This document shows, in pieces, positions 326-48,578 of a DNA stretch of 64,000 bases. Numbering within the stretch: position 1 is the stretch's first letter; each line of letters begins with the position of its first letter. The notes beneath the pieces were generated by a model. It saw nothing but the letters and a program-made list of their open reading frames with translations, did no database searches and was not told the DNA's origin. The stretch is from Geothrix limicola (GTDB taxonomy: Bacteria; Acidobacteriota; Holophagae; Holophagales; Holophagaceae). The stretch covers positions 1 to 64,000 of the forward strand of contig NZ_BSDE01000005.1 of NCBI RefSeq assembly GCF_030268085.1, given 5' to 3'. The position numbers were made by a program, and so were the translations under genes.

Positions 326-1672
326 GTGATCCACATCGTCGGGGCGGGACTGGCTGGTTCGGAAGCCGCATGGCAATTGGCTTCACGGGGCCATGAAGTG
401 CTCCTCACTGAAATGCGCCCGCGCTGGACCACCCCGGCGCACACCACGGACCAGGCCGCCGAGATGGTGTGCTCGAACTCCTTCAAGAGCGACGATCCTG
501 CCTCTGCCACCGGCATCCTGAAGGCCGAAATGAAACGGATGGACTCGCTGATCCTCCACTGCGCCGAAGCCACTCGGGTGCCTGCGGGCAACAGCCTTGC
601 CGTCGATCGGAACGCCTTCTCTGAGCTGGTGACCCGAACCCTCAAGGGCCATCCGGGCATCCGATGGCAAGAAGCCCAGGTGACCGAACTGGACCTTTCA
701 TCCCAGACCATTCTCGCCACGGGTCCGCTCACCTCCGAACCCCTTGCGGCCTGGCTGGCCTCGACCACAGGCTGCGGGCAGCTGCACTTCTACGACGCCA
801 TCGCGCCCATCGTCGAACGCGACAGCATTGACATGGATATCGCCTGGATGGCCGCCCGCTATGACAAGGGAGGCCCCGACTTCATCAACTGCCCGCTCGA
901 CAAGACCCAGTACGAGCGGTTTCTGGACGCGCTCATCGCGGCAGAACGGGTGCCCCTGCATGAAGTGGACACGCCTTATTTCGAGGCCTGCCTGCCCATC
1001 GAGGTCATGGCCGACCGGGGACGGGAAACCCTGAGGCACGGCCCCATGAAGCCCGTGGGACTGGATGATCCTCGAACGGGTCGGTGGCCGCACGCGGTCG
1101 TGCAGCTGCGCCAGGACACCCTGGCAGGTGAACATTTCAACCTCGTGGGCTTCCAGACCCGCCTCAAGTGGGGCGCCCAGAGGGAGGTCTTCAACCTCAT
1201 CCCGGGCCTCGCACAGGCTGAATACGCGCGGTTCGGAAGCATCCACCGGAACACCTACATCCAGGCTCCGTCCATTCTGAATGCGACATTGAATGTCAAA
1301 TCTACCCCGCAGCTTTGGGTCGCGGGCCAGCTCTCTGGCGTGGAAGGCTATCTCGAATCCGCCGCGGGCGGCCTGGCGGCGGCCTTCGCGGTGGACCGCG
1401 CCGCTCGCGGACTGGCGCCGCTTCCCTTCCCTCCCGAAACCGTCCTGGGCAGCCTCCTCCACTACCTGGCCAACGCCTCCGCCAAGGATTTCGGCCCCAC
1501 CAACGCCATGCTCGGGCTCCTCCCGCCCCTGCCCGAAGGTGAGGTGGATGTCCGGGGCCTGAAGCGGGCCGGTGGCCTGCGTGCAGTCAAAGTGGCCAAA
1601 GGCGAGGCCCACCGGAAGCGCGCGCTGGCCGCCCTTGAGTCCTTCTTGGGGACGGCCGATCAGGCCATGTAA
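326..1672 (+). CDS. trmFO: Methylenetetrahydrofolate-tRNA-(uracil-5-)-methyltransferase TrmFO
   Basis: Flavoprotein that makes 5-methyluridine at position 54 of tRNA using methylene-tetrahydrofolate and FAD. The 448-residue product opens with the FAD-binding GAGLAGSEAAW motif (residues 6-16), followed by EMRP. Cys49, in MVCSNSFKSDDP, and Cys189, in FINCPLDK, match the two conserved family cysteines. I chose the GTG at 326 because it puts the FAD motif at the N-terminus as in the family and lies 6 nt after AAGGAGA; the open frame extends upstream to 194 but that part has no homology signal. The 3' end overlaps the convergent flgL by 13 bp. Identification is secure. Confidence 0.96.
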   Translation: MIHIVGAGLAGSEAAWQLASRGHEVLLTEMRPRWTTPAHTTDQAAEMVCSNSFKSDDPASATGILKAEMKRMDSLILHCAEATRVPAGNSLAVDRNAFSELVTRTLKGHPGIRWQEAQVTELDLSSQTILATGPLTSEPLAAWLASTTGCGQLHFYDAIAPIVERDSIDMDIAWMAARYDKGGPDFINCPLDKTQYERFLDALIAAERVPLHEVDTPYFEACLPIEVMADRGRETLRHGPMKPVGLDDPRTGRWPHAVVQLRQDTLAGEHFNLVGFQTRLKWGAQREVFNLIPGLAQAEYARFGSIHRNTYIQAPSILNATLNVKSTPQLWVAGQLSGVEGYLESAAGGLAAAFAVDRAARGLAPLPFPPETVLGSLLHYLANASAKDFGPTNAMLGLLPPLPEGEVDVRGLKRAGGLRAVKVAKGEAHRKRALAALESFLGTADQAM

Positions 1673-2565
1673 TCGAAGAGGCTCGTCTTGTTGGCCTTTG
1701 CCAACACGTTCAGCGTGGCCGATTGGATCGTCTGGTCCGTCGAGTACTCGGTGGCAGCCTTCGCAAAATCCGTATCCTGCAGGTTGTTCTGCAGGTCCTG
1801 CAGGTTCACGTTGAACCCGGTCAGGGTGTCCTTGAGGTTGATCAGCTGCGACTGCCGGCCGCCGAGGTCGGTCTGAACCTTGAGCAGGTTGTTCAGGCTG
1901 TTCTGCAGGTTCGTGGTGGCAGTGGCGACGAGAGCAGCATTATTGGTGGCCATGCCATCCCGGAGATCCGTGACCGCCTTGAAAAGGTCCGTGGTCGAGC
2001 CCTGGCCTCCCGCGCCGAAGAACACCGTGTCGCCAGGGATGTTGGTCGCAATGGTCGTCGTGGCCGTCACAGACAGGTTGACGGTGCCGGAGTTCCCCCA
2101 GTAGTTGATGGGGCCAGCCGGCGGCGCCGCATCCTCGAAGGGGAGGGGATGGGCGGCCGTCCCAAGCGTCTGAGTGCCCGCGAAGATGTACTTCCCCTGG
2201 ACCTGGGTGTTCGCCAGACCCAGCAGGCTGGTCCGGATCGCATCGATCTCCGGGGCCGACGCAGAGCTGACCGTCACAGCCAGCTCCTGCAGCCGTTCCA
2301 CATCGTTGATGGCCGAAGACACGACGTCCTCGGAGGTCGTCAGGAATCCCATCGCCGCATCGCCCTGCTTGACGAACTGGGTATTCGATTTCATGGATGT
2401 CCCGAGATCGAGGATCGAGGCCGCGGCGGCGGGATCATCACCCGGGCTCGTGAGACGGTTTCCCGTCGCAATGCGGGTCTGGTTCTGAACCAGCCGTGCC
2501 TGGGTCCGCTCCAGATCCAGAAGGGTCTGTCGGGTCTGGGTGGTGCTGGGGGTTCTCAGAGACAT
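1660..2565 (-). CDS. flgL: Flagellar hook-filament junction protein FlgL (HAP3)
   Basis: Forms the junction between hook and filament outside the cell. The 301-residue product has the flagellin-type N-terminal coiled coil (residues about 5-60, containing RIATGNRLTSPGDDPAAAA) and the matching C-terminal helix ending in a flagellin-like segment rich in Gln, Ala and Asn. The middle is Thr/Gly/Ala-rich and variable, as usual in FlgL. It is the last gene of the flagellar operon and lies 19 bp after flgK. The upstream GGCAGGTGATAC gives a weak ribosome binding site. Its 3' end overlaps convergent trmFO by 13 bp, so no separate terminator fits between them. Confidence 0.93.
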   Translation of the reverse strand: MSLRTPSTTQTRQTLLDLERTQARLVQNQTRIATGNRLTSPGDDPAAAASILDLGTSMKSNTQFVKQGDAAMGFLTTSEDVVSSAINDVERLQELAVTVSSASAPEIDAIRTSLLGLANTQVQGKYIFAGTQTLGTAAHPLPFEDAAPPAGPINYWGNSGTVNLSVTATTTIATNIPGDTVFFGAGGQGSTTDLFKAVTDLRDGMATNNAALVATATTNLQNSLNNLLKVQTDLGGRQSQLINLKDTLTGFNVNLQDLQNNLQDTDFAKAATEYSTDQTIQSATLNVLAKANKTSLFDYMA

Positions 2566-2584
2566 GTATCACCTGCCTTCAGGC

Positions 2585-4066
2585 TCATTGACCGAACTGG
2601 GTCACCAGCTGTTCGGTGAGCTGGTTGATCACGCTGAGAAAGCGCGCGGAGGCCTGGTAACCGCGCTGGAGGTTCATCATGTTGGCCGCCTCCTCGTTCA
2701 GATCCACGCCGGAGATGCTGTCCCGCTGGTTCTGCAGCGCCGTGACCAGGTTCTGTTGGGTGGTGCTTTGGGTGTGGTAAGACTGGGACTGGGTGCCGAC
2801 GTCGCTGACGAGGCTGCCCACCACGCTGCTGAAGGGCCCCGCATCGGTGATTCCATCCCCGTTCGTATCCACCGTGCTCGTCGCCGTCTGCAGGTTGCCG
2901 ATGGCATTGGCCCGGGCGTTGTCGCCCTGGGCCCCGGCCACACCGGCGGCCGCAATGAGAGAGGGATTGCCCACGATGGCCGCATTGACCGAGAGCGCGT
3001 TCACCATGCCCTTGTAGAAGGTCGCCGCCGAGACAGTGGTGGGAAGGCCCGTGCCACCATTCGCCACGCCGCTCTGGAAGAAATCATTGCCCGTGGTCAC
3101 GCCGTCAGCCGCGAATCCCGTCCGGTGCAACTGGTTCACCTGCCTGGCGACGCCGGCGGCGATCTGATCCAGCTGCCGCTGGAACCCCGCGAGGATGTTG
3201 TCCCGCAGGTCCAGCTTGCCGCCCAGTTGCCCATCCTTGATGCCGGCGGTCACATCCACCACCGTGCCGCCCATGACCGATTGCACGGCGAGGTGGTTAT
3301 CCAGCGCCGCCCCACCGGGAGAGGTCTGCAACTTGTAGGCGCTGCTGCCGCTGACAAGCACCCCGGCGCCCGTGTCCAGGGTGATCTGGTACTCGCCCTT
3401 GGAGCCTTCGAACACACTGATGCCCACCAATCCGGCGAGCTGATCGGTCAGGGCCTTCCGCTGGTCGCGGGCGTCGTTGTTGGCTCCCGGGTCGCTTTCG
3501 GTGGTGATCTGCTGATTCAGCTCGGCGATCTGGGATGTCAGGTTGTTCACCTGGGTCACCAGGCTGCCCACGGCCTGATCGGCGCTGTTCCGCTGATCAT
3601 CCAGCAGCCGGTACTGGGACTGGAGTCCCGTGATCATCGCCTGGGCCTTCCCCACCACGTTGGTCCGGAGGGCGGCGCTCTCCGGCTGGGCAGCCAGGGA
3701 TTGGAAGCTCTGAAAGAAGGACTGGATCTGGGCCGCGATGCCCGTGTCGCTCGTGTCTCCCACGACATTCGCGATCGCGTTGACCCCTGAATAGCGCTCC
3801 TCGGCCCCCGCCTGGCGGGCCGATTCGCGGTAGATCTGCAGGTCCAGGAATTTGTCCCGGACGCCTTGGACGCTGTTCAACGAGACGCCGGTCCCGAAGT
3901 AGATCTGCCCCTGGGGCTGGGCCTGGTTGGCGATCAAATCGGCGCGTTGCCGCGTGTAGCCGGGCGTATTCACGTTCGCAATGTTGTGGCCCACCACCCC
4001 GAGGGCCGCCTGCTGCGCCTGCAGGCCCGAGAGTCCGATGTAGAGGCTTGCGTTGAGTCCGGGCAT
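2585..4066 (-). CDS. flgK: Flagellar hook-associated protein FlgK (HAP1)
   Basis: First of the two hook-filament junction proteins, exported by the flagellar type III apparatus. The 493-residue product begins with the family signature LNASLYIGLSGLQAQQAALG and then NIANVNTPGYTRQR, and ends with the C-terminal flagellar rod/hook motif (NLNEEAANMMNLQRGYQASARFL type). The start at 4066 was chosen from this signature and from AAAAGG 8 nt upstream; the same frame stays open to 4489 but that stretch overlaps the preceding flgN-like gene. Only 2 bp separate it from the flgN-like stop, so the two are probably translationally coupled, as expected for chaperone and cargo. Confidence 0.95.
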   Translation of the reverse strand: MPGLNASLYIGLSGLQAQQAALGVVGHNIANVNTPGYTRQRADLIANQAQPQGQIYFGTGVSLNSVQGVRDKFLDLQIYRESARQAGAEERYSGVNAIANVVGDTSDTGIAAQIQSFFQSFQSLAAQPESAALRTNVVGKAQAMITGLQSQYRLLDDQRNSADQAVGSLVTQVNNLTSQIAELNQQITTESDPGANNDARDQRKALTDQLAGLVGISVFEGSKGEYQITLDTGAGVLVSGSSAYKLQTSPGGAALDNHLAVQSVMGGTVVDVTAGIKDGQLGGKLDLRDNILAGFQRQLDQIAAGVARQVNQLHRTGFAADGVTTGNDFFQSGVANGGTGLPTTVSAATFYKGMVNALSVNAAIVGNPSLIAAAGVAGAQGDNARANAIGNLQTATSTVDTNGDGITDAGPFSSVVGSLVSDVGTQSQSYHTQSTTQQNLVTALQNQRDSISGVDLNEEAANMMNLQRGYQASARFLSVINQLTEQLVTQFGQ

Positions 4067-4068
4067 GG

Positions 4069-4365
4069 CTACACCTTTTCCTGCAGGCGGGGCGCGAGCG
4101 CCGGAGCCTCGGCCTGGAGCCCTCCCCTGCCATAGGAAGGCGATCCGGATAGGCCAGCGAGGGTCGCGCGCAGCGGGGATTGAAGGCCGATGAGCAGCGT
4201 CTGGATCGAGGCAATGCGCTGTTTCAGCACCAGGGCGCTCTTCAGGTCCTCGGGCCACCAGACCAGCTCCGACCACCGGATGCTGGAGAGCAGGGCCGAA
4301 GGATCTTCGCCTTCGATCAGCTTTTCCTCGAGCGCATCCAAGAGTTCGGGCACGGCATGCAGCAT
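4069..4365 (-). CDS. flgN: FlgN-like flagellar export chaperone
   Basis: A 98-residue, largely helical, Leu/Glu-rich cytoplasmic protein placed directly before flgK with a 2-bp gap. FlgN-family proteins bind the C-terminal tails of FlgK and FlgL and keep them export-competent. Sequence similarity alone is weak for this fast-evolving family; the call rests on size, helical heptad-like pattern (VPELLDALEEKLIEG, LKSALVLKQRIASIQTLL) and position between flgM and flgK, the usual location. The C-terminal 25 residues are Gly/Pro/Ala-rich and probably disordered. Confidence 0.62.
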   Translation of the reverse strand: MLHAVPELLDALEEKLIEGEDPSALLSSIRWSELVWWPEDLKSALVLKQRIASIQTLLIGLQSPLRATLAGLSGSPSYGRGGLQAEAPALAPRLQEKV

Positions 4366-4397
4366 GGAAGACCTCCTCCCGGGTTCCTGGGCAAGCC

Positions 4398-4715
4398 TCA
4401 GGCCAAGAGGTCCAGGTGCATCCGGGCACCGTCTGCCGAGGTCTCCTCCGACTCTTCCCCGGGAAGGTCCTCCGAAGCTCCGGTCCCATGTCGTCGCTGC
4501 TGCTCGGCTTGTTCCTGATTGCCCTGTTCGGGCAGCTTCAGACCCTCGGTTTCAGACACATCCGACACATCGTGCATGGCCTCCGCCAGCCGGGCATCGA
4601 AAGCCTGCCGACGGGCCTGTTCCCGCTGCACCTGGGCCCCGCCCTCCATGGCCTGCCTCACCGTCTCGACGGCGGCGGTCTGGAGTATCTGGCGTTGTCC
4701 CAGGGGACTGATCAT
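4398..4715 (-). CDS. Hypothetical protein in flagellar operon
   Basis: 105 residues, not recognised. The first half is probably helical (ILQTAAVETVRQAMEGG, then an Arg/Gln/Ala-rich stretch), the second half acidic and Gln/Glu/Ser-rich, probably disordered. No signal peptide, membrane segment or cysteine. It starts 24 bp after flgM and ends 32 bp before the flgN-like gene on the same strand, so it is co-transcribed with the hook-junction genes. Possible roles are a small chaperone, a hook-length or export accessory, or a regulator of FlgM; nothing in the sequence decides among these. Confidence 0.6.
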   Translation of the reverse strand: MISPLGQRQILQTAAVETVRQAMEGGAQVQREQARRQAFDARLAEAMHDVSDVSETEGLKLPEQGNQEQAEQQRRHGTGASEDLPGEESEETSADGARMHLDLLA

Positions 4716-4739
4716 GCCCTCACCACGAGGGCCTGGGGG

Positions 4740-5042
4740 CTAGGAATGGCGTCCCTGCGCCATGTGTTCCTTGATGAGCCCTTCGGCCACGGCCTCTCCG
4801 TCGGGGTTGTAGGAATCGGCATCCAGACGGTTCTTGATGGCTTCGACCTTCTCCATCCGGATGTCCGGCACCACGGCCAGAGCCTCCTGGGCTACGGCCA
4901 CGAGCCGTGCCGCGGAAGAAACCTGGACCGCATCCGACGCGGAAGCCGAAGCGACTGGAGCCGACGCAGGCGTGGAGGACGTTTTGGGTCCCGTCGCGCT
5001 CTGGGTGCTGCCGACACCACTCGTTTTACCGCTCACGCGCAT
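4740..5042 (-). CDS. flgM: Anti-sigma-28 factor FlgM
   Basis: Holds the flagellar sigma factor FliA inactive until the hook is complete, and is then exported. The 100-residue product has the typical disordered Ser/Ala/Thr-rich N-terminal half and the sigma-28-binding C-terminal half (VSSAARLVAVAQEAL, then MEKVEAIKNRLDADSYNPDGEAVAEGLI). The spacing of V-x-x-IK-x-R-DA-Y is the FlgM signature. I prefer ATG at 5042, preceded by GAGG with 5-nt spacing, over the GTG two codons earlier. It starts 2 bp after the flgJ stop. Its operon also encodes two late junction proteins, FlgK and FlgL, consistent with checkpoint control. Confidence 0.9.
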   Translation of the reverse strand: MRVSGKTSGVGSTQSATGPKTSSTPASAPVASASASDAVQVSSAARLVAVAQEALAVVPDIRMEKVEAIKNRLDADSYNPDGEAVAEGLIKEHMAQGRHS

Positions 5043-5044
5043 AT

Positions 5045-5419
5045 TCACCTCGACAAAGTCCTATCGGCAGTTTGCCAAGAACCTTCAACACCCTGGAGGT
5101 TCTTTTTCACAGCCGCGGCCTCAGACTGAGCCCAGGAGGCCTTCAGGCGGTCCGCCAGACCCCATCCGTGGCCGGACGAGACGGCACGATCGACCACGGC
5201 CTGGTCCATCAGGTATTCATAGGTGGAGCGGGATTGGCCCGAATCACCAAACAATCCCGAAGGCTGAATGGTCTTGCGCATGGTCTGGAAGAGCAGCCCC
5301 ATCAAAAGGCCTTCGAATTGGCGAGCGGCTTTCTCGGTTTTTTCGTTGGCATCCGGCAGAGCCTTCGCCCCCTGGGCCTGGGCCAGGGGGTCGACGGCGG
5401 GAAGGCCCTGGGCGATCAC
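5045..5419 (-). CDS. flgJ: Rod-binding protein, FlgJ N-terminal domain only
   Basis: Rod-cap/rod-binding domain that assists assembly of the flagellar rod in the periplasm. The 124-residue product contains the rod-binding signature AARQFEGLLMGLLFQTMRKT and the following YEYLMDQAVVDRAVSSGHGWGLAD. It lacks the C-terminal muramidase (glucosaminidase) domain present in enterobacterial FlgJ (about 310 residues), so peptidoglycan cleavage must be supplied by another protein; single-domain FlgJ is common outside gamma-proteobacteria. Its ATG overlaps the flgI stop in ATGA, which indicates coupled translation. Confidence 0.9.
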   Translation of the reverse strand: MIAQGLPAVDPLAQAQGAKALPDANEKTEKAARQFEGLLMGLLFQTMRKTIQPSGLFGDSGQSRSTYEYLMDQAVVDRAVSSGHGWGLADRLKASWAQSEAAAVKKNLQGVEGSWQTADRTLSR

Positions 5420-6525
5420 AGGACCCTCAGGTCGGCCTGAAGGGCGCCGGCTTCCTTGATGGCCTGGAGGATGGCCACCAGGTCGCGGGGACTGACGCCC
5501 ATGCCGTTCAGCAGTTCGGCCAATTTGCCCACGCTGACTCCCGGCTCGACCGTCACGGTCTTGGGCTTCTCCTCGACCGCGGTGACATCCTTCTTCGTCG
5601 CAGTAACCGTCTTGCCCTGACTCAAGGGAGCCGGCTGACTCACGAGGGGCGTGGAACTCACCATGATGCTCAACCCTCCCTGGACGATGCTCACGGCGCC
5701 GATACGGACATCCGAGCCGAGGATGACGGTCCCTGTCTTCTCATTCACCACCACCCGGGCACGAGGTTGCAGCTGCACGTTCAGGTTCTCCAGCCGCGCC
5801 ACCAGTTCGACAGCCCTTCCCTCGAACTCCTTGGGGATCTTCAGTTCCACGGTGCGGGCATCCAGGGGATGCGCCACCTTTTCGCCCAGTTCCTCATTGA
5901 TGGCATGCACCACGCGGACGGCGGTGGTGAAATCCTCCTCCACCAGGCTGTAGCGCAGGGTCGCACGGCCGTTGAAATCACCGCCCACCTCGCGCTCGAT
6001 GATGCCTCCGTCCGGCACGCGCCCCACGGTGGGATGGTTCTTGACCACCGAGGCACCCCCTGCCGACGCGCTGAATCCCCCGACCAGCAGCGGCCCCTGG
6101 GCCACCGCATAGGTCAGGCCATCGGGGCCCTGCAAGGCAGTCATCAGGAGCGTCCCACCCGCCAGAGATTTCGCGTCGCCCGTGCTCGACACCGTCACGT
6201 CCAAACGCGAGCCCGCCCGGGAGAAGGGCGGCAGCTCGGCCGTTACCATGACGGCCGCCACGTTCTTCACCTTCACCTGGACGGGGTTGACCGTCAGGCC
6301 CTGACGCGACATGAGGTTCGTGAGCGACTGGACCGTGAACTTGGTCTGATCCTTGTCGCCGGTCCCATCCAAGCCCACCACCACCCCGTATCCAAGCAGC
6401 TGGTTGCCCCGCACGCCCTGAAGCCGGGCCACGTCCCGAAGCTTGGATTCGACCTTCTTTTCGACCTTGGCAGTCTCGGCCCCGCAGAGGGCCAGGGCCG
6501 CCAGAAAGAGCGCAGCGACTCGCAT
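5416..6525 (-). CDS. flgI: Flagellar P-ring protein FlgI
   Basis: Forms the P-ring bushing around the flagellar rod in the peptidoglycan layer. The 369-residue length is typical. A Sec signal peptide covers about residues 1-16 (MRVAALFLAALALCGA). The family signature follows: LQGVRGNQLLGYGVVVGLDGTGD, then LPPFSRAGSRLDVTVSSTGDAKSLAGGTLLMT. The C-terminal signature VSVGKLAELLNGMGVSPRDL with EAGALQA close behind is also present. A 25-residue Lys/Thr/Val-rich linker before the C-terminal block is longer than usual. Located between flgH (9 bp) and flgJ (4-bp overlap). Confidence 0.97.
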   Translation of the reverse strand: MRVAALFLAALALCGAETAKVEKKVESKLRDVARLQGVRGNQLLGYGVVVGLDGTGDKDQTKFTVQSLTNLMSRQGLTVNPVQVKVKNVAAVMVTAELPPFSRAGSRLDVTVSSTGDAKSLAGGTLLMTALQGPDGLTYAVAQGPLLVGGFSASAGGASVVKNHPTVGRVPDGGIIEREVGGDFNGRATLRYSLVEEDFTTAVRVVHAINEELGEKVAHPLDARTVELKIPKEFEGRAVELVARLENLNVQLQPRARVVVNEKTGTVILGSDVRIGAVSIVQGGLSIMVSSTPLVSQPAPLSQGKTVTATKKDVTAVEEKPKTVTVEPGVSVGKLAELLNGMGVSPRDLVAILQAIKEAGALQADLRVL

Positions 6526-43686: not shown

Positions 43687-44808
43687 CTAGACCTGGGCGT
43701 GGACGTTCATGTTCAGGAACTTCTGTTCGAAGGCCGCCCAATCCAGCGTGCCCGCGCCCTGGGCGCCTTCGGGCGTGCGGAACCGGGTGATCTCCTCCTG
43801 GTACCAGTCGATGACCGGCTTGCCGATCTTCAGCGTGCCCAGTTCTGAAGCGAGGTCGCTGGGGGTCAGCAGGCAGACCCAGCCGCGATCGTAGGGGCTG
43901 TGGATGAGTTCGGCCGGGTCGGTCTTCAGGCCCGCATTGTCATGCTCGATCCGGCCGGAGATCGGCGCGGCGACGTGAACGATGCCCGCGGCACCCTTGA
44001 GGCTGAAGAGCGTGTCACCCTGCTTCACGGCCTTGCCCCGTTCGGGCAGCGTGATTTCCTTCACGGTGCCCAGGGCCTTGCTGATGAAGTCGTCGATGCC
44101 GATGCGCACCTGGCCCTCGGGCTCGATGCGGACCCAGGCGTGGCCGGGAGACAGGAAGGCGCCACCGGGCACGCAGAATTCGGTCGCCGGCACCACCTCG
44201 GCCATTTCCGGAGCCACCACGCGAACGTTGGGCAGCTTGGCTGCTTCGAGCCTCGCCTCGCGCTTGATGAGCAGCTTCCGGGCGAACTCGCCGAGTTCAT
44301 CGGCCGTGAAGGGCTTCTGCACATATTCACAGGCGCCCTGCTGCAGCGTCTGGACGGCGGTCTCGATGCTGCCGTAGCCCGTGATTACCACCACATCCAT
44401 GTCGGGGCGCAGGTGCTTCACGGACTTCACCACCTCCACGCCGTCCATGTCCGGCATCTTCAAGTCGGTGAAGACGAAATCGTAGTCGTGGCGCTGGATC
44501 AGGCCCAGGGCCTCGGGGCCGTGCTCCACCGTGTCCACACTGAACCCTTCGAGCACGAGGATGCGCCGGAAGGAATCGAGCACCACGGCCTCGTCGTCCA
44601 CGGCGAGGATACGTGCCTTGGGATTGGGCACCTCGACCCGCTTGAGACTCTTGGCCTCGTGGGTGAAATCGAGGCGGATGGAGGTGTTCAGGACGGCCTC
44701 GCGGGCCTGGCGCGCGCGCTTCTCCTGCATGCGCCGCAGGTTGGTACGCACGAGGAAGTCAATGCCGACGAAGGCCACGAACATGAATAGGATCAGAACG
44801 GCGGTCAT
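43687..44808 (-). CDS. Membrane-anchored response regulator receiver fused to a GcvH-like lipoyl domain
   Basis: 373 residues. One N-terminal membrane helix (about 2-20) and a basic linker. A receiver domain (about 65-180) follows, with acidic pair DD, phosphoacceptor Asp115 in FTDLKMPDMDG, Thr in ITGYGS and Lys165 in QKPF. A complete GcvH-like domain (about 215-340) comes next: GHAWVRIEPEGQVRIGIDDF, LGTVKEITLPERGKAVKQGD, the lipoyl site SLKGAAG with Lys271, APISGRIEHDN and SPYDRGWVCLL. Lys271 aligns with the lipoylated lysine of glycine-cleavage H protein. There is no DNA-binding domain, so output is not ordinary transcription control. ATG at 44808 has GGAGG 6 nt upstream. Last gene of the redox operon, 4-9 bp after the kinase. 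Confidence 0.88.
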   Translation of the reverse strand: MTAVLILFMFVAFVGIDFLVRTNLRRMQEKRARQAREAVLNTSIRLDFTHEAKSLKRVEVPNPKARILAVDDEAVVLDSFRRILVLEGFSVDTVEHGPEALGLIQRHDYDFVFTDLKMPDMDGVEVVKSVKHLRPDMDVVVITGYGSIETAVQTLQQGACEYVQKPFTADELGEFARKLLIKREARLEAAKLPNVRVVAPEMAEVVPATEFCVPGGAFLSPGHAWVRIEPEGQVRIGIDDFISKALGTVKEITLPERGKAVKQGDTLFSLKGAAGIVHVAAPISGRIEHDNAGLKTDPAELIHSPYDRGWVCLLTPSDLASELGTLKIGKPVIDWYQEEITRFRTPEGAQGAGTLDWAAFEQKFLNMNVHAQV

Positions 44809-44817
44809 GACCACCTC

Positions 44818-46344
44818 CTAGGTGAGGGTTGGAATGATGGGTTTGCCGATTTCGGAGCCGGGGACCGTGGGCAGGCGCAGCGTGAAGCAGGTCCCCTGGC
44901 CGGGCTCGCTCTGCGCCTCCAGGGACCCGCCGTGGGCCTCTACGATGCCCCAGCTGACCGCCAGGCCCAGGCCCGTGCCGTGATTGCCCTTGGTGGTGAA
45001 GAAGGGTTCGAAGATGCGCGGAAGGTCCTCGGCGGGAATGCCGTAGCCGCTGTCCTGCAGGAGGAATTCGATGGAATCTGAGGGCCCGGGGCGGGTCGTC
45101 GCTCGAATGGTGCCGCCCTCGGTCCCGATGGCATCCGCCGCGTTCAGCAGGAGGTTCACGATCACCTGTTCGATCTGATTCGCGTCCGCGTGGGCCGTCG
45201 GAAGGTCCTGGGCCAGGTCGAGGGAGAGATCCACGTGGTTCAGCGACAGCTGGGTCATCACCACGGACACGGATTTCCGGATCACGTCATTGAGGTCCAT
45301 GGGCTTGCGGGCCGGAGCCGCGGGCCTTGCGAAGTCCAGCAGGCCACGGATGATGCCTCGGCAGCGCACCGTCTCGCGCACGATCACGTCCAGATCCTCA
45401 CAGGCGGAGGCGTCGTGCTCCATGCGCTTGCGCAGGAGTGAGGCGTAGCTCAGCACGCCCGTCAGGGGGTTGTTGATCTCGTGGGCGATGCCGGCCGCCA
45501 AGCGGCCCACGGAGGCGAGCTTGTCGGCCTGGGCCAGCTGGCGGTGGGTATCCGCCAGTTTGCCTGTCATCTCGTTGAAGGCCGCCGCGAGCTGGCTGAG
45601 CTCGTGCCGGCCGTTCACGGGAATGGTGCTTCCCAGATCGCCCTCACTCACGCGGCGCGTGCCTTCGACGAGCGCCGCCACCGGACGCACCACCAGGCGG
45701 CGGTTGAGCCACCAGAGCATGGAACTGCCGGCGAGGATGGCGAGGATCGCCGACGATACGATCACCATGCGGCTGTGGGCGATTTCGCGATCCACCTCGT
45801 CGAGGGAGACGTTCACATCCAGCACGCCCAGCAGGCTCTGCTTGGCGCTGTGGGCATGGCAGGCGGCGGTGGAGCAGGAGGGTTCGTTAGGGATGGGCGC
45901 GATGACGCCCAGGACCCGCGCTCCGTCCGCGGTCCGGAAGGTGCGCGCGCGGGCCTGGATCTCCAGGCGCTCCAGGGGCCTGCCCTCCGCGTGGCAGGCG
46001 TAGCAGGCCTCACCGCGGATATCCAGGCTGGTGCCGATCTCCTCCGCCGCGGAGGAGAACATGATCTTGCCTTCCTTGTTGAAGACCCGCACTTTCCGGA
46101 TGCCCTGCTCCTGCAGCCCGCCGACGGAGCGGATCTGCCGGTGCAGGTTCTCCCGGCGGTTCTCGAGCATGTCGAAATGGGTCGAGCTGCGGATGGTTTC
46201 ACTGAGCTGGTCGGCGCTGCGGGTGCGCTCGGCCAGCAGTTGCGCGGTGTGCGACCGCAGGACGGCCACGGCCATCCCGCCGATCACCAGCGCCGTCGCG
46301 AGGCCGGCGCCGAAGATCAGACGGGTGCCGATGCGGGTTCGCAT
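44818..46344 (-). CDS. Sensor histidine kinase with two c-type haem motifs in its periplasmic domain
   Basis: 508 residues. First membrane helix about 9-29. The periplasmic sensor (30-190) contains CYACH (Cys114-His118) and CSTAACH (Cys157-His163), a CxxCH and a CX4CH covalent haem-binding motif. A second membrane helix (about 193-214) leads to a HAMP domain, then HisKA with GRLAAGIAHEINNPLTG (His288). The HATPase domain has N box QVIVNLLLNAADAI and G boxes DSGYGIP and GTGLGLAVSWGIVEAHGG. Periplasmic haem-c sensors of redox potential are known in Geobacter-type signalling proteins. Expected partner: the receiver-GcvH protein encoded next. It follows the NrfD gene after 3 bp. Confidence 0.9.
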   Translation of the reverse strand: MRTRIGTRLIFGAGLATALVIGGMAVAVLRSHTAQLLAERTRSADQLSETIRSSTHFDMLENRRENLHRQIRSVGGLQEQGIRKVRVFNKEGKIMFSSAAEEIGTSLDIRGEACYACHAEGRPLERLEIQARARTFRTADGARVLGVIAPIPNEPSCSTAACHAHSAKQSLLGVLDVNVSLDEVDREIAHSRMVIVSSAILAILAGSSMLWWLNRRLVVRPVAALVEGTRRVSEGDLGSTIPVNGRHELSQLAAAFNEMTGKLADTHRQLAQADKLASVGRLAAGIAHEINNPLTGVLSYASLLRKRMEHDASACEDLDVIVRETVRCRGIIRGLLDFARPAAPARKPMDLNDVIRKSVSVVMTQLSLNHVDLSLDLAQDLPTAHADANQIEQVIVNLLLNAADAIGTEGGTIRATTRPGPSDSIEFLLQDSGYGIPAEDLPRIFEPFFTTKGNHGTGLGLAVSWGIVEAHGGSLEAQSEPGQGTCFTLRLPTVPGSEIGKPIIPTLT

Positions 46345-46347
46345 GGC

Positions 46348-47520
46348 TCAGGCCCCTGTTCCCGGCAGCTTGGGACTGGCCAAGGGGCCGTCGGGAAAGA
46401 TCGGGAAGGTCCGCACTGCGAAGGCGAAGACCGCCATGCCCGTCGCCACGAGGCCCAGGGACACGATGACTTCCATGCCCGAAGGCAGGTAGCGGACGCC
46501 GGAGGCGGCTTCCATGCCCGTGATGCTCACGTTCAGGCGGTTCATCACGAAGCCGAGCACCGCCATGAAGGCCCCGGCCACCAGCCAGTCCGGGTTGGAG
46601 CGCAGGCGGCGGAAGGACATCAGCACCACCGGGAGGATGACGCCCAGGCTGAATTCGAGGAGGAACATCTTCCCCTCGTACCCGAATTCAAGGATGCTGC
46701 CGAAGGCATGGTTGCGGCGGATCGCCTGGATGCGCATGAGTCCGTAGATGCCGAGCGCGACGACCATCCCGCGGGCGAGCGGTTCGAGCAGGTCCAGCTC
46801 CAGATGACGCTGGAAGGCCCGCCCGCTCAGGTAGGATTCGAGAATCATCATGCCGATGCCCGCGCCGATGGCGGAGATGTAGAAGTGGAGCGGCAGCATG
46901 GGGGAATACCAGAGCGGATGCAGCTTGCTCGGCACGATGAGGTAGAGGGATCCCAGCGAGGACTGGTGCAGGGTCGAGAGGATCACGCCGAGGATGACGA
47001 GGGGCGTGATGAGGCGGTGGATGAGCCGCGCCGGAGCATGGAACCCGAAACGTTCGAAGACCACCGGCGAAAACTCCACGGCCAGCACGGTGGTGTAGAG
47101 CATCACGCACCAGGCCACCTCGAACATGACGGAGTGCGGATTCCAGTAGACGATGGCGTGCCAGATGCGCCATGGCTGGCCCAGATCCAGCAGCAGGGCC
47201 ACGATGACGAAGGCGTAACCGAGGAAACCCGTCAGGATCGTGGGCCGCACGATGGGCTCGAAGCGCTTCAGGTTGAAGAGGTGGACGATGGCCGTGAGCG
47301 TGAAGGCGCCGGCGGCAAGCCCCACCCCGCAGAGCAGGTCGAAGCCGATCCAGAGCCCCCAGGGGAACTGGTTGCTTAGGTTGGTGACCGCGCCCAGCCC
47401 CTTGGTGAAGCGGATCACGGTGACGGCGCAGAAGGCCAGGAACAGGACGACAAAGATCGCCGTCCAGAAGCCGGGGCGGAATCGGCGCGGCAGAGTCGCG
47501 GCGGCAGCGGCGATGTTCAT
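46348..47520 (-). CDS. NrfD/HybB-type polysulfide-reductase-like quinone membrane subunit
   Basis: 390-residue integral membrane protein with about ten helices. NrfD-family proteins exchange electrons or protons with menaquinone in complexes such as hydrogenase 2, nitrite reductase and Qrc. Family features include GLWIGFDLLCGVGLAAGAFTLTAIVHLF, LLLDLGQPWRIWHAIVYWNPHSVMFEVAWCVMLYTTVLAVEF and LHQSSLGSLYLIVPSKLHPLWYSPMLPLHFYISAIGAGIGMMI. These place it nearest HybB. The ATG overlaps the ferredoxin-subunit stop by 4 bp (ATGA). No hydrogenase, molybdopterin or multihaem catalytic subunit is encoded nearby. Confidence 0.9.
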   Translation of the reverse strand: MNIAAAAATLPRRFRPGFWTAIFVVLFLAFCAVTVIRFTKGLGAVTNLSNQFPWGLWIGFDLLCGVGLAAGAFTLTAIVHLFNLKRFEPIVRPTILTGFLGYAFVIVALLLDLGQPWRIWHAIVYWNPHSVMFEVAWCVMLYTTVLAVEFSPVVFERFGFHAPARLIHRLITPLVILGVILSTLHQSSLGSLYLIVPSKLHPLWYSPMLPLHFYISAIGAGIGMMILESYLSGRAFQRHLELDLLEPLARGMVVALGIYGLMRIQAIRRNHAFGSILEFGYEGKMFLLEFSLGVILPVVLMSFRRLRSNPDWLVAGAFMAVLGFVMNRLNVSITGMEAASGVRYLPSGMEVIVSLGLVATGMAVFAFAVRTFPIFPDGPLASPKLPGTGA

Positions 47521-48269
47521 GATCGGTCCTCCCGTCCATTGGTATGGTTCGCGGCCTTCGCCACGGCTTCCCGGCGCGCGGTGATCCAGTGCACGCCATA
47601 CAGGAAGACGCCCCAGACGCCGACGAAATCAGGGATGTTGGAAAGCACCTGCCAGGTGCGCATGGCCGGCGGATCCGCGGGCAGGTTCGACTTCAGGCCG
47701 AGTTTCTCGAATGGCACGCTGGAAATCATCATCACCGAGGTGCCGCCGGCCTCCGTGAGGCCGTAGATCTGGTTCACGTAATCGCCGGGCTTCTGGCGGA
47801 TGCGCGTCCTGGCCTCCCAGATCAGATCCTCCTTCTTGCCGAAGGTGGTGGCGCCGTACTGGCAGGCTTCGGCGCAGGCGGTGGGCTTACCGTCCTTGAC
47901 CCGGCCTGCGCACATGATGCACTTGCCGACGACGGGAACCGGGCGGTCCCACTGGTATTTCGGGATCTCGAAGGGACAGGCCATCATGCAGTAGCGGCAG
48001 CCCATGCAGCGCTCGGCGTCATAGACCACGGGGCCATCCGGCGTCTTCTTCAGCGCCGCGACAGGACACACGGAAGCACAGGTGGGCACTTCGCAGTGCA
48101 TGCACAGGCGGCGGACGTTGAGACCTTCGTGCTCGTGGACCGTGGTCCACGTGTAGGCCGTCAACACCTCCTCTACCTGGCCTGGTAGCTTGTTCTGCTC
48201 CTTGCATGCGGAGCTGCAGGCGCCGCAACCGATGCAGCGCGTGGCGTCGATGAGAAGGCCCATGCCCAT
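47517..48269 (-). CDS. Four-cluster ferredoxin-like iron-sulfur subunit (DmsB/HybA/NrfC type)
   Basis: 250 residues with four Cys clusters: CIGCGACSSAC (from Cys12), CMHCEVPTCASVC, CMGCRYCMMACPF and CIMCAGRVKDGKPTACAEAC. Together they hold up to four [4Fe-4S] clusters. The C-terminal helix DFVGVWGVFLYGVHWI probably anchors it to the membrane, as in HybA. It has no Tat or Sec signal, unlike HybA, so it may face the cytoplasm. The start at 48269 follows AGGAGA with 4-nt spacing; the open frame upstream to 48482 is AT-rich leader. First gene of the four-gene operon and expected electron partner of the NrfD-like protein. Confidence 0.9.
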   Translation of the reverse strand: MGMGLLIDATRCIGCGACSSACKEQNKLPGQVEEVLTAYTWTTVHEHEGLNVRRLCMHCEVPTCASVCPVAALKKTPDGPVVYDAERCMGCRYCMMACPFEIPKYQWDRPVPVVGKCIMCAGRVKDGKPTACAEACQYGATTFGKKEDLIWEARTRIRQKPGDYVNQIYGLTEAGGTSVMMISSVPFEKLGLKSNLPADPPAMRTWQVLSNIPDFVGVWGVFLYGVHWITARREAVAKAANHTNGREDRS

Positions 48270-48326
48270 GGGTTCTCCTGCCTGATCAATCGCCCTCGAG
48301 AGGGATTCCCGGGGGATTCGGTTGGA

Positions 48327-48355
48327 AGCATGCGCCCGGCCAATTCGATAGTCAA
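48327..48355 (-). promoter_or_regulatory. Candidate sigma-70 promoter of the redox operon
   Basis: On the minus strand TTGACT (48355-48350), a 17-nt spacer and CATGCT (48332-48327). The -35 is 5/6 to consensus, the -10 weak, which suits an activated promoter. The start would be near 48320, about 50 nt before the first ATG. Confidence 0.42.
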
Positions 48356-48375
48356 CCCTCTGGTAGTAATTAAAA

Positions 48376-48560: not shown

Positions 48561-48578
48561 GCCCCGCTTGCGCGGGGC
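48561..48578 (-). terminator. Rho-independent terminator of groESL
   Basis: GCCCCGC-N4-GCGGGGC, followed on the minus strand by TTTTTCTTTG. It lies 29 bp after the groEL stop. Confidence 0.9.

Follow-up and report, generated by a model that had tools for sequence, protein, structure and literature searches.

Conserved operon in Geothrix and other Holophagaceae encoding an FeS/NrfD pair, a di-haem sensor kinase and a receiver–GcvH-like fusion

Gene layout and products of the operon

The window, a stretch of 64,000 nucleotides at the start of contig NZ_BSDE01000005.1, comes from a Geothrix-like genome of the family Holophagaceae. At 43687-48269 it carries four minus-strand genes that encode, in this order, an iron-sulphur (FeS) subunit, an NrfD-family membrane subunit, a di-haem sensor histidine kinase and a transmembrane (TM)-anchored fusion of a receiver with a GcvH-like domain. 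The FeS gene starts with an ATG at 48269 (GGAG upstream) and overlaps the NrfD gene by 4 bp; the gap between the NrfD and kinase genes is 3 bp, and that between the kinase and fusion genes is 3 bp (GTG start) or 9 bp (ATG at 44808). Coordinates and Pfam domains agree with the preliminary description of this DNA as to strand, order and spacing. The flanking genes are groEL upstream and a convergent lipA downstream. The named relatives with this fusion belong to Geothrix or are Holophagaceae metagenome-assembled genomes (MAGs). The genes and their main features are as follows, with residues of the fusion counted from the ATG at 44808.

47517-48269, minus strand: FeS subunit, 250 aa (Pfam/NCBIfam; tail and Cys count)
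46348-47520, minus strand: NrfD-family membrane subunit of the HmcC/HybB type, 390 aa (Pfam NrfD, 1.1e-28)
44818-46344, minus strand: sensor histidine kinase, 508 aa, TM - periplasmic di-haem sensor - TM - HAMP - HisKA - HATPase_c (Pfam)
45991-46005, minus strand: first c-haem motif of the kinase sensor, CYACH (CX2CH), invariant in 24 sequences
45856-45876, minus strand: second c-haem motif of the kinase sensor, CSTAACH (CX4CH), invariant in 24 sequences
45481-45483, minus strand: phospho-acceptor His288 of HisKA, invariant
43687-44814, minus strand: membrane-anchored receiver–GcvH-like fusion, 373-375 aa, N-terminal TM helix (Response_reg 9e-29, GCV_H 1.7e-17)
44464-44466, minus strand: receiver phospho-acceptor Asp115, invariant together with D71, D72, T143 and K165
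43774-44178, minus strand: GcvH-like domain, residues 211-345, cytoplasmic by topology (superposition on H-protein)
43987-43989, minus strand: codon 274, equivalent of the H-protein lipoyl-lysine codon, here Ala (hidden Markov model alignment to 1onl/3a7a, ungapped through the hairpin)

As components of respiration, NrfD/FeS pairs usually work for a catalytic subunit. The FeS subunit encoded here has 16 cysteines (four [4Fe-4S] clusters; Pfam Fer4_11), its nearest known proteins are HmcB and HybA, and it ends in a C-terminal TM tail followed by positive residues (mean K+R of 3.6 behind the tail helix versus 1.2 before it). A tyrosine between cluster ligands is kept (CRYC) and is taken to match QrcC Y113 as described in PMC13059093. 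The NrfD subunit keeps the equivalents of HybB D58, D109, S129, E133, R89, Y99, E148, H184 and R265 in 32/32 Holophagaceae sequences; the quinone-site and proton-path residues of HybB have been established by mutation (for residue roles see PMC8076601, PMC13059093). Judged by these residues, the pair is an intact HybB-type quinone module, for which electron exchange with menaquinone is predicted. The positive tail and the HybB-like partner suggest that the FeS domain is periplasmic. The FeS subunit has no signal peptide. A twin-arginine translocation (Tat) signal was found in no Holophagae FeS protein, and the idea that one lies hidden ahead of the annotated start was rejected on this ground.

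The kinase is catalytically complete as far as its residues tell, with H288, the N-box, the glycine boxes and both haem motifs invariant across the 24 sequences, which come from families f1 and f2. Its second haem motif aligns weakly (E 0.0058) with the haem motif of GSU0935 (3b42), one of the Geobacter GSU0935/GSU0582 sensors, and a match to Mcp40H-20_sensor falls under the cut-off of that family. A fold search with the kinase model returned matches to the kinase core only, so that the fold of the sensor was scarcely probed.

By the same residue criterion the receiver of the fusion protein is catalytically complete. Response_reg and GCV_H are its only Pfam domains; the absence of a DNA-binding output, as described earlier, is thus upheld. 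The AlphaFold2 model of the fusion (mean pLDDT, the predicted local distance difference score, 82.4) superposes on E. coli H-protein (3a7l) with Z 19.8 and 1.1 A over 128 residues, i.e. on the barrel-sandwich H-protein fold. Position 274, where H-protein carries its lipoyl lysine, is occupied by residues other than lysine in 48 of 49 distinct orthologues (A20 T13 S7 L4 E3 K1 G1). At a distance of three residues, Lys271 is present in 41/49 orthologues and replaced in 8/49, and in seven orthologues the hairpin has no lysine at all. Given the non-lysine attachment position and the hairpins devoid of lysine, the GcvH-like domain is not, by its sequence, a lipoyl carrier in the known sense. Nor is it the housekeeping GcvH of the genome, since a separate GcvH match lies at G000:C1:991975-992274 and relatives show similar second matches.

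Conservation and variants of the operon

A species-level collection yielded 47 loci, of which 31 have the complete stretch, and the gene order is kept in all 31. The four genes are therefore neighbours in related genomes too, a point on which the earlier proposal had been staked. In 13 Geothrix loci they stay between groEL and lipA; L096, L098 and L099 keep the gene order with other flanks, groEL and lipA being undetected beside them. Such a grouping exceeds chance and, on this comparative evidence, is one evolutionary unit. A class-wide search gave strong matches to the GcvH part of the fusion in most Holophagaceae genera and none in the reduced genus g16, in g17 and g25, or in family f3. Most fusion-bearing genomes also carry a close NrfD, and in G017, a member of the Geothrix genus from which the fusion is absent, such an NrfD is absent too.

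The FeS/NrfD pair has been replaced in place in some lineages. In three Geothrix loci (L040, L041, L044) the FeS/NrfD genes in the same position are 47-51% identical to the pair of the window and 68-77% identical to a second, free-standing pair on contig C3 of the window genome; replacement in place is likewise found in G089 and G093 of another genus. Constant gene order, replacement of the pair in situ and joint absence in G017 together bear out the earlier view that an electron-transfer pair is joined here to a signalling pair. The free-standing pair itself (L126; G000:C3:614180-615283 plus the adjoining FeS gene) is about 47-50% identical to the first and is of the type that replaced it elsewhere; it lies beside a divergent PAS-sigma-54 activator and has no catalytic subunit.

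Two further features bear on transcription.

48325-48357, minus strand: promoter-like element GGTTGACTAT-N14-GSATSCTTC upstream of the FeS gene (aligned upstream regions)
48561-48578, minus strand: stem-loop behind groEL, followed on the minus strand by TTTTTCTTT (scan and sequence)

The stem-loop and its T's would terminate groEL, thus setting the operon apart as a unit of its own. The promoter-like element is highly conserved with a constant 14-base spacing, and a scan with the sigma-70 consensus gave no match. In a genome-wide scan allowing up to three mismatches (<=3) it matched once in the window genome, and four other relatives tested have one copy each; a role as regulon marker was rejected because of the single genomic copy. 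In L040, L041 and L044, where the pair was replaced, the element occurs twice, before the pair and before the kinase gene. We read this duplication as probable selection for keeping the pair, the kinase and the regulator under common regulation.

A related operon occurs in family f2, which belongs to the same class, with the order TM-anchored GcvH-like gene, FeS, NrfD, di-haem kinase and NtrC-type sigma-54 regulator. Here the GcvH-like gene is separate, TM-anchored and close upstream of the FeS gene. Since f2 encodes GcvH-like protein and regulator in separate genes, Geothrix unites in a single chain what is divided between two in f2, which by gene comparison is a Rosetta-stone link to the fusion. 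The f2 GcvH-like proteins of L054, L055, L059 and L060 have a Cys-rich stretch and no lipoyl lysine, and an M54-type peptidase gene lies 3' of the f2 operon in L059, with a similar gene in L054 and L060.

Spread beyond Acidobacteriota is known from L103 only, a contig binned as Bacteroidales (a Bacteroidota MAG). At 1587-5996 its genes for a Tat-exported FeS protein and NrfD lie between a gene for a PBP-like domain-TM-GcvH protein, which comes first, and one for a TM-GcvH protein. This suggests a wider family of GcvH-like/NrfD modules outside Acidobacteriota, and FeS, NrfD and a membrane-anchored GcvH-like domain appear to make up the core that these arrangements share.

Catalytic partners and related systems

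None of the 31 complete operons holds a catalytic gene (0/31). Between groEL and lipA there is no HmcA multihaem cytochrome and no HmcD, E or F, and searches with PF02906, PF00384 and PF00374 revealed no partner common to both operon types. For the NiFe large subunit the window genome gives only a sub-threshold PF00374 match of 25 bits, and its three PF02906 ([FeFe]) proteins carry no Tat signal. G039, a genome with the sister operon, has neither a NiFe hydrogenase nor a Tat [FeFe]-hydrogenase, and its only molybdopterin match is NuoG-like. Molybdenum enzymes with Tat export are encoded in Geothrix (L134, L144). The earlier statement that no catalytic subunit is present therefore holds for the operon and for anything shared by both operon types; in Geothrix the molybdenum enzymes may include a partner encoded elsewhere, whereas one in G039 is unlikely.

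A 628-aa protein of the window genome (L179; G000:C9:108273-108962) combines an [FeFe]-hydrogenase-like domain with an apparent PAS-type region and is possibly sensory or regulatory.

The Hmc complex (HmcB/HmcC) and the E. coli Hyd-2 module (HybA/HybB) resemble the operon in that a HybB-type NrfD comes after a 4x[4Fe-4S] protein with a tail anchor. The best NCBIfam matches, to HmcC (336.6 bits, cut-off 550) and HmcB (243.5 bits, cut-off 420), both fall under the curated cut-offs. Unlike these systems, the operon has no HmcA, HmcD-F or hydrogenase genes, its FeS protein has no Tat signal, and a kinase and a receiver–GcvH-like fusion have been added. Also related is a described arrangement in which a signal-less, tail-anchored FeS protein with a conserved C-tail and an adjacent HybB-like protein are coupled to a Tat-lipoprotein [FeFe]-hydrogenase (PMC10924467). 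The operon, however, has no hydrogenase, and no Tat [FeFe]-hydrogenase was found in the genome. The published module does occur in Acidobacteriota: in the Holophagaceae genome G074 (L176, 4065-7571) a Tat-lipoprotein [FeFe]-hydrogenase gene is followed by genes for a signal-less FeS and a HybB-like protein.

The periplasmic c-haem sensor and HAMP-HisKA kinase recall the haem-Cache kinases (Tll0287/DUF3365, GSU0582/GSU0935; PMC12889525, PMC3831638), among which Anaeromyxobacter and Geobacter are known to have members with an additional haem motif. The operon kinase differs in its weak sequence match, its CX4CH motif and its genetic tie to the FeS/NrfD pair. Haem-Cache domains fused to signalling modules are reported to act as nitric oxide (NO) sensors, not as electron acceptors (PMC12889525).

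With H-protein and LbpA the GcvH-like domain shares the fold, but the lipoyl lysine is gone, the domain is membrane-tethered and receiver-fused, and an extra C-terminal region is present; no glycine cleavage or sHdr genes were seen among the neighbours of the operon. As in other response regulators without DNA output, a complete receiver is combined with an effector domain, here a pseudo-H-protein. We know of no described response regulator with such an effector, and the open-licence literature searched contained no described system uniting GcvH, receiver and NrfD.

Proposed mechanism and alternative explanations

The best explanation, which we put forward tentatively, is that the four products form one signalling and electron-transfer unit, in which the haem kinase acts on the tethered receiver and the pseudo-H-protein docks on and gates the FeS/NrfD pair. 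The periplasmic haems might sense the redox state, or else a haem ligand such as NO, and could exchange electrons with the menaquinone pool through FeS/NrfD. The kinase would then set the phosphorylation state of the receiver, and the receiver might in turn bring the pseudo-H-protein into contact with the membrane-bound pair or release it, so that electron flow is switched or tuned. Such a pathway would act directly on a respiratory module, not through transcription. The intact quinone-reactive pair, the complete kinase and receiver and the fold devoid of lipoyl lysine can be read from the sequences, whereas docking, the membrane side of the FeS domain and the direction in which electrons flow are inferred. 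That the same pair feeds the kinase haems is attractive because tail charge and HybB-like NrfD would put the FeS domain in the periplasm. An extension to a closed redox feedback loop without transcription, in which the regulator contacts the quinone module through its cofactor-less pseudo-H-protein and the module feeds the kinase haems, is rather unlikely.

Across Holophagaceae, to which the iron reducer Geothrix belongs, a FeS/NrfD pair is conserved together with a haem kinase and a non-transcriptional regulator. Should the pseudo-H-protein gate this pair, quinone-linked electron flow in bacteria would be under a fast phospho-switch that works post-translationally.

The proposed unit is supported, at the level of gene comparison, by the constant order, the co-absence in G017, the in-situ replacement with promoter duplication, the f2 operon and L103, and by the HybB residues kept in 32/32 sequences, the invariant kinase and receiver residues and the loss of the lipoyl lysine. 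Several points weigh against it. The lack of a Tat signal speaks against a periplasmic FeS domain; haem-Cache signalling domains are reported to behave as NO sensors rather than electron acceptors (PMC12889525); and the target of the receiver could be elsewhere. In addition, no NrfD was detected in G087 and G095, which have the fusion but whose contigs end in or just before the kinase gene, and L103 shows no kinase, but its contig stops at the second GcvH. In a different, reverse wiring, FeS/NrfD would serve as input only, passing the redox state of menaquinone to the kinase haems, and the receiver–pseudo-H-protein would have a target encoded elsewhere. The HybB-like orientation and positive C-tail, which would bring the FeS domain close to the haem sensor, agree with this, as do the exchangeable type of the FeS/NrfD pair and the sigma-54 NtrC-type regulator of f2, whose target is on DNA. 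The missing Tat signal and the resemblance of such sensors to NO sensors also count against it, however, and GcvH-like proteins accompany FeS/NrfD in L103 too; we regard this wiring as fairly unlikely.

It is improbable that FeS/NrfD forms the membrane part of an ordinary respiratory enzyme. In that case a catalytic subunit encoded elsewhere would be exported by Tat and carry the signal-less FeS protein along, and the two-component genes would regulate the enzyme. There is precedent for such a pairing in the [FeFe]-hydrogenase module (PMC10924467) present in G074, and the molybdenum enzymes of Geothrix are candidate partners, but the lack of a catalytic gene in every complete operon, of a Tat signal on the [FeFe] proteins of the window genome and of a NiFe hydrogenase or Tat [FeFe]-hydrogenase in G039, where the only molybdopterin match is NuoG-like, argues against it. 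The preliminary description had proposed, as one model, that the GcvH domain bears lipoate and that phosphorylation controls electron exchange between its thiol/dithiol and the FeS subunit. The H-protein fold, the convergent lipA in Geothrix and the lipoate role of the GcvH-like LbpA in sulfur oxidation (PMC6067878) would be in keeping with it; the alanine at the attachment position, non-lysine in nearly all orthologues, and the repeated replacement of Lys271 contradict it, and we consider it hardly credible. lipA was also rejected as a functional neighbour: its synteny is Geothrix-wide, but it is undetected beside the operons of L096, L098 and L099, and its adjacency is thus no evidence for lipoylation.

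The pseudo-H-protein is also an example of a lipoyl carrier that has become a cofactor-free module, and automatic annotation is likely to call this domain GcvH. A second, divergent receiver–GcvH copy of about 45-54% identity is found at G092:C98:11803-12303 (L178), with no kinase, FeS or NrfD match nearby.

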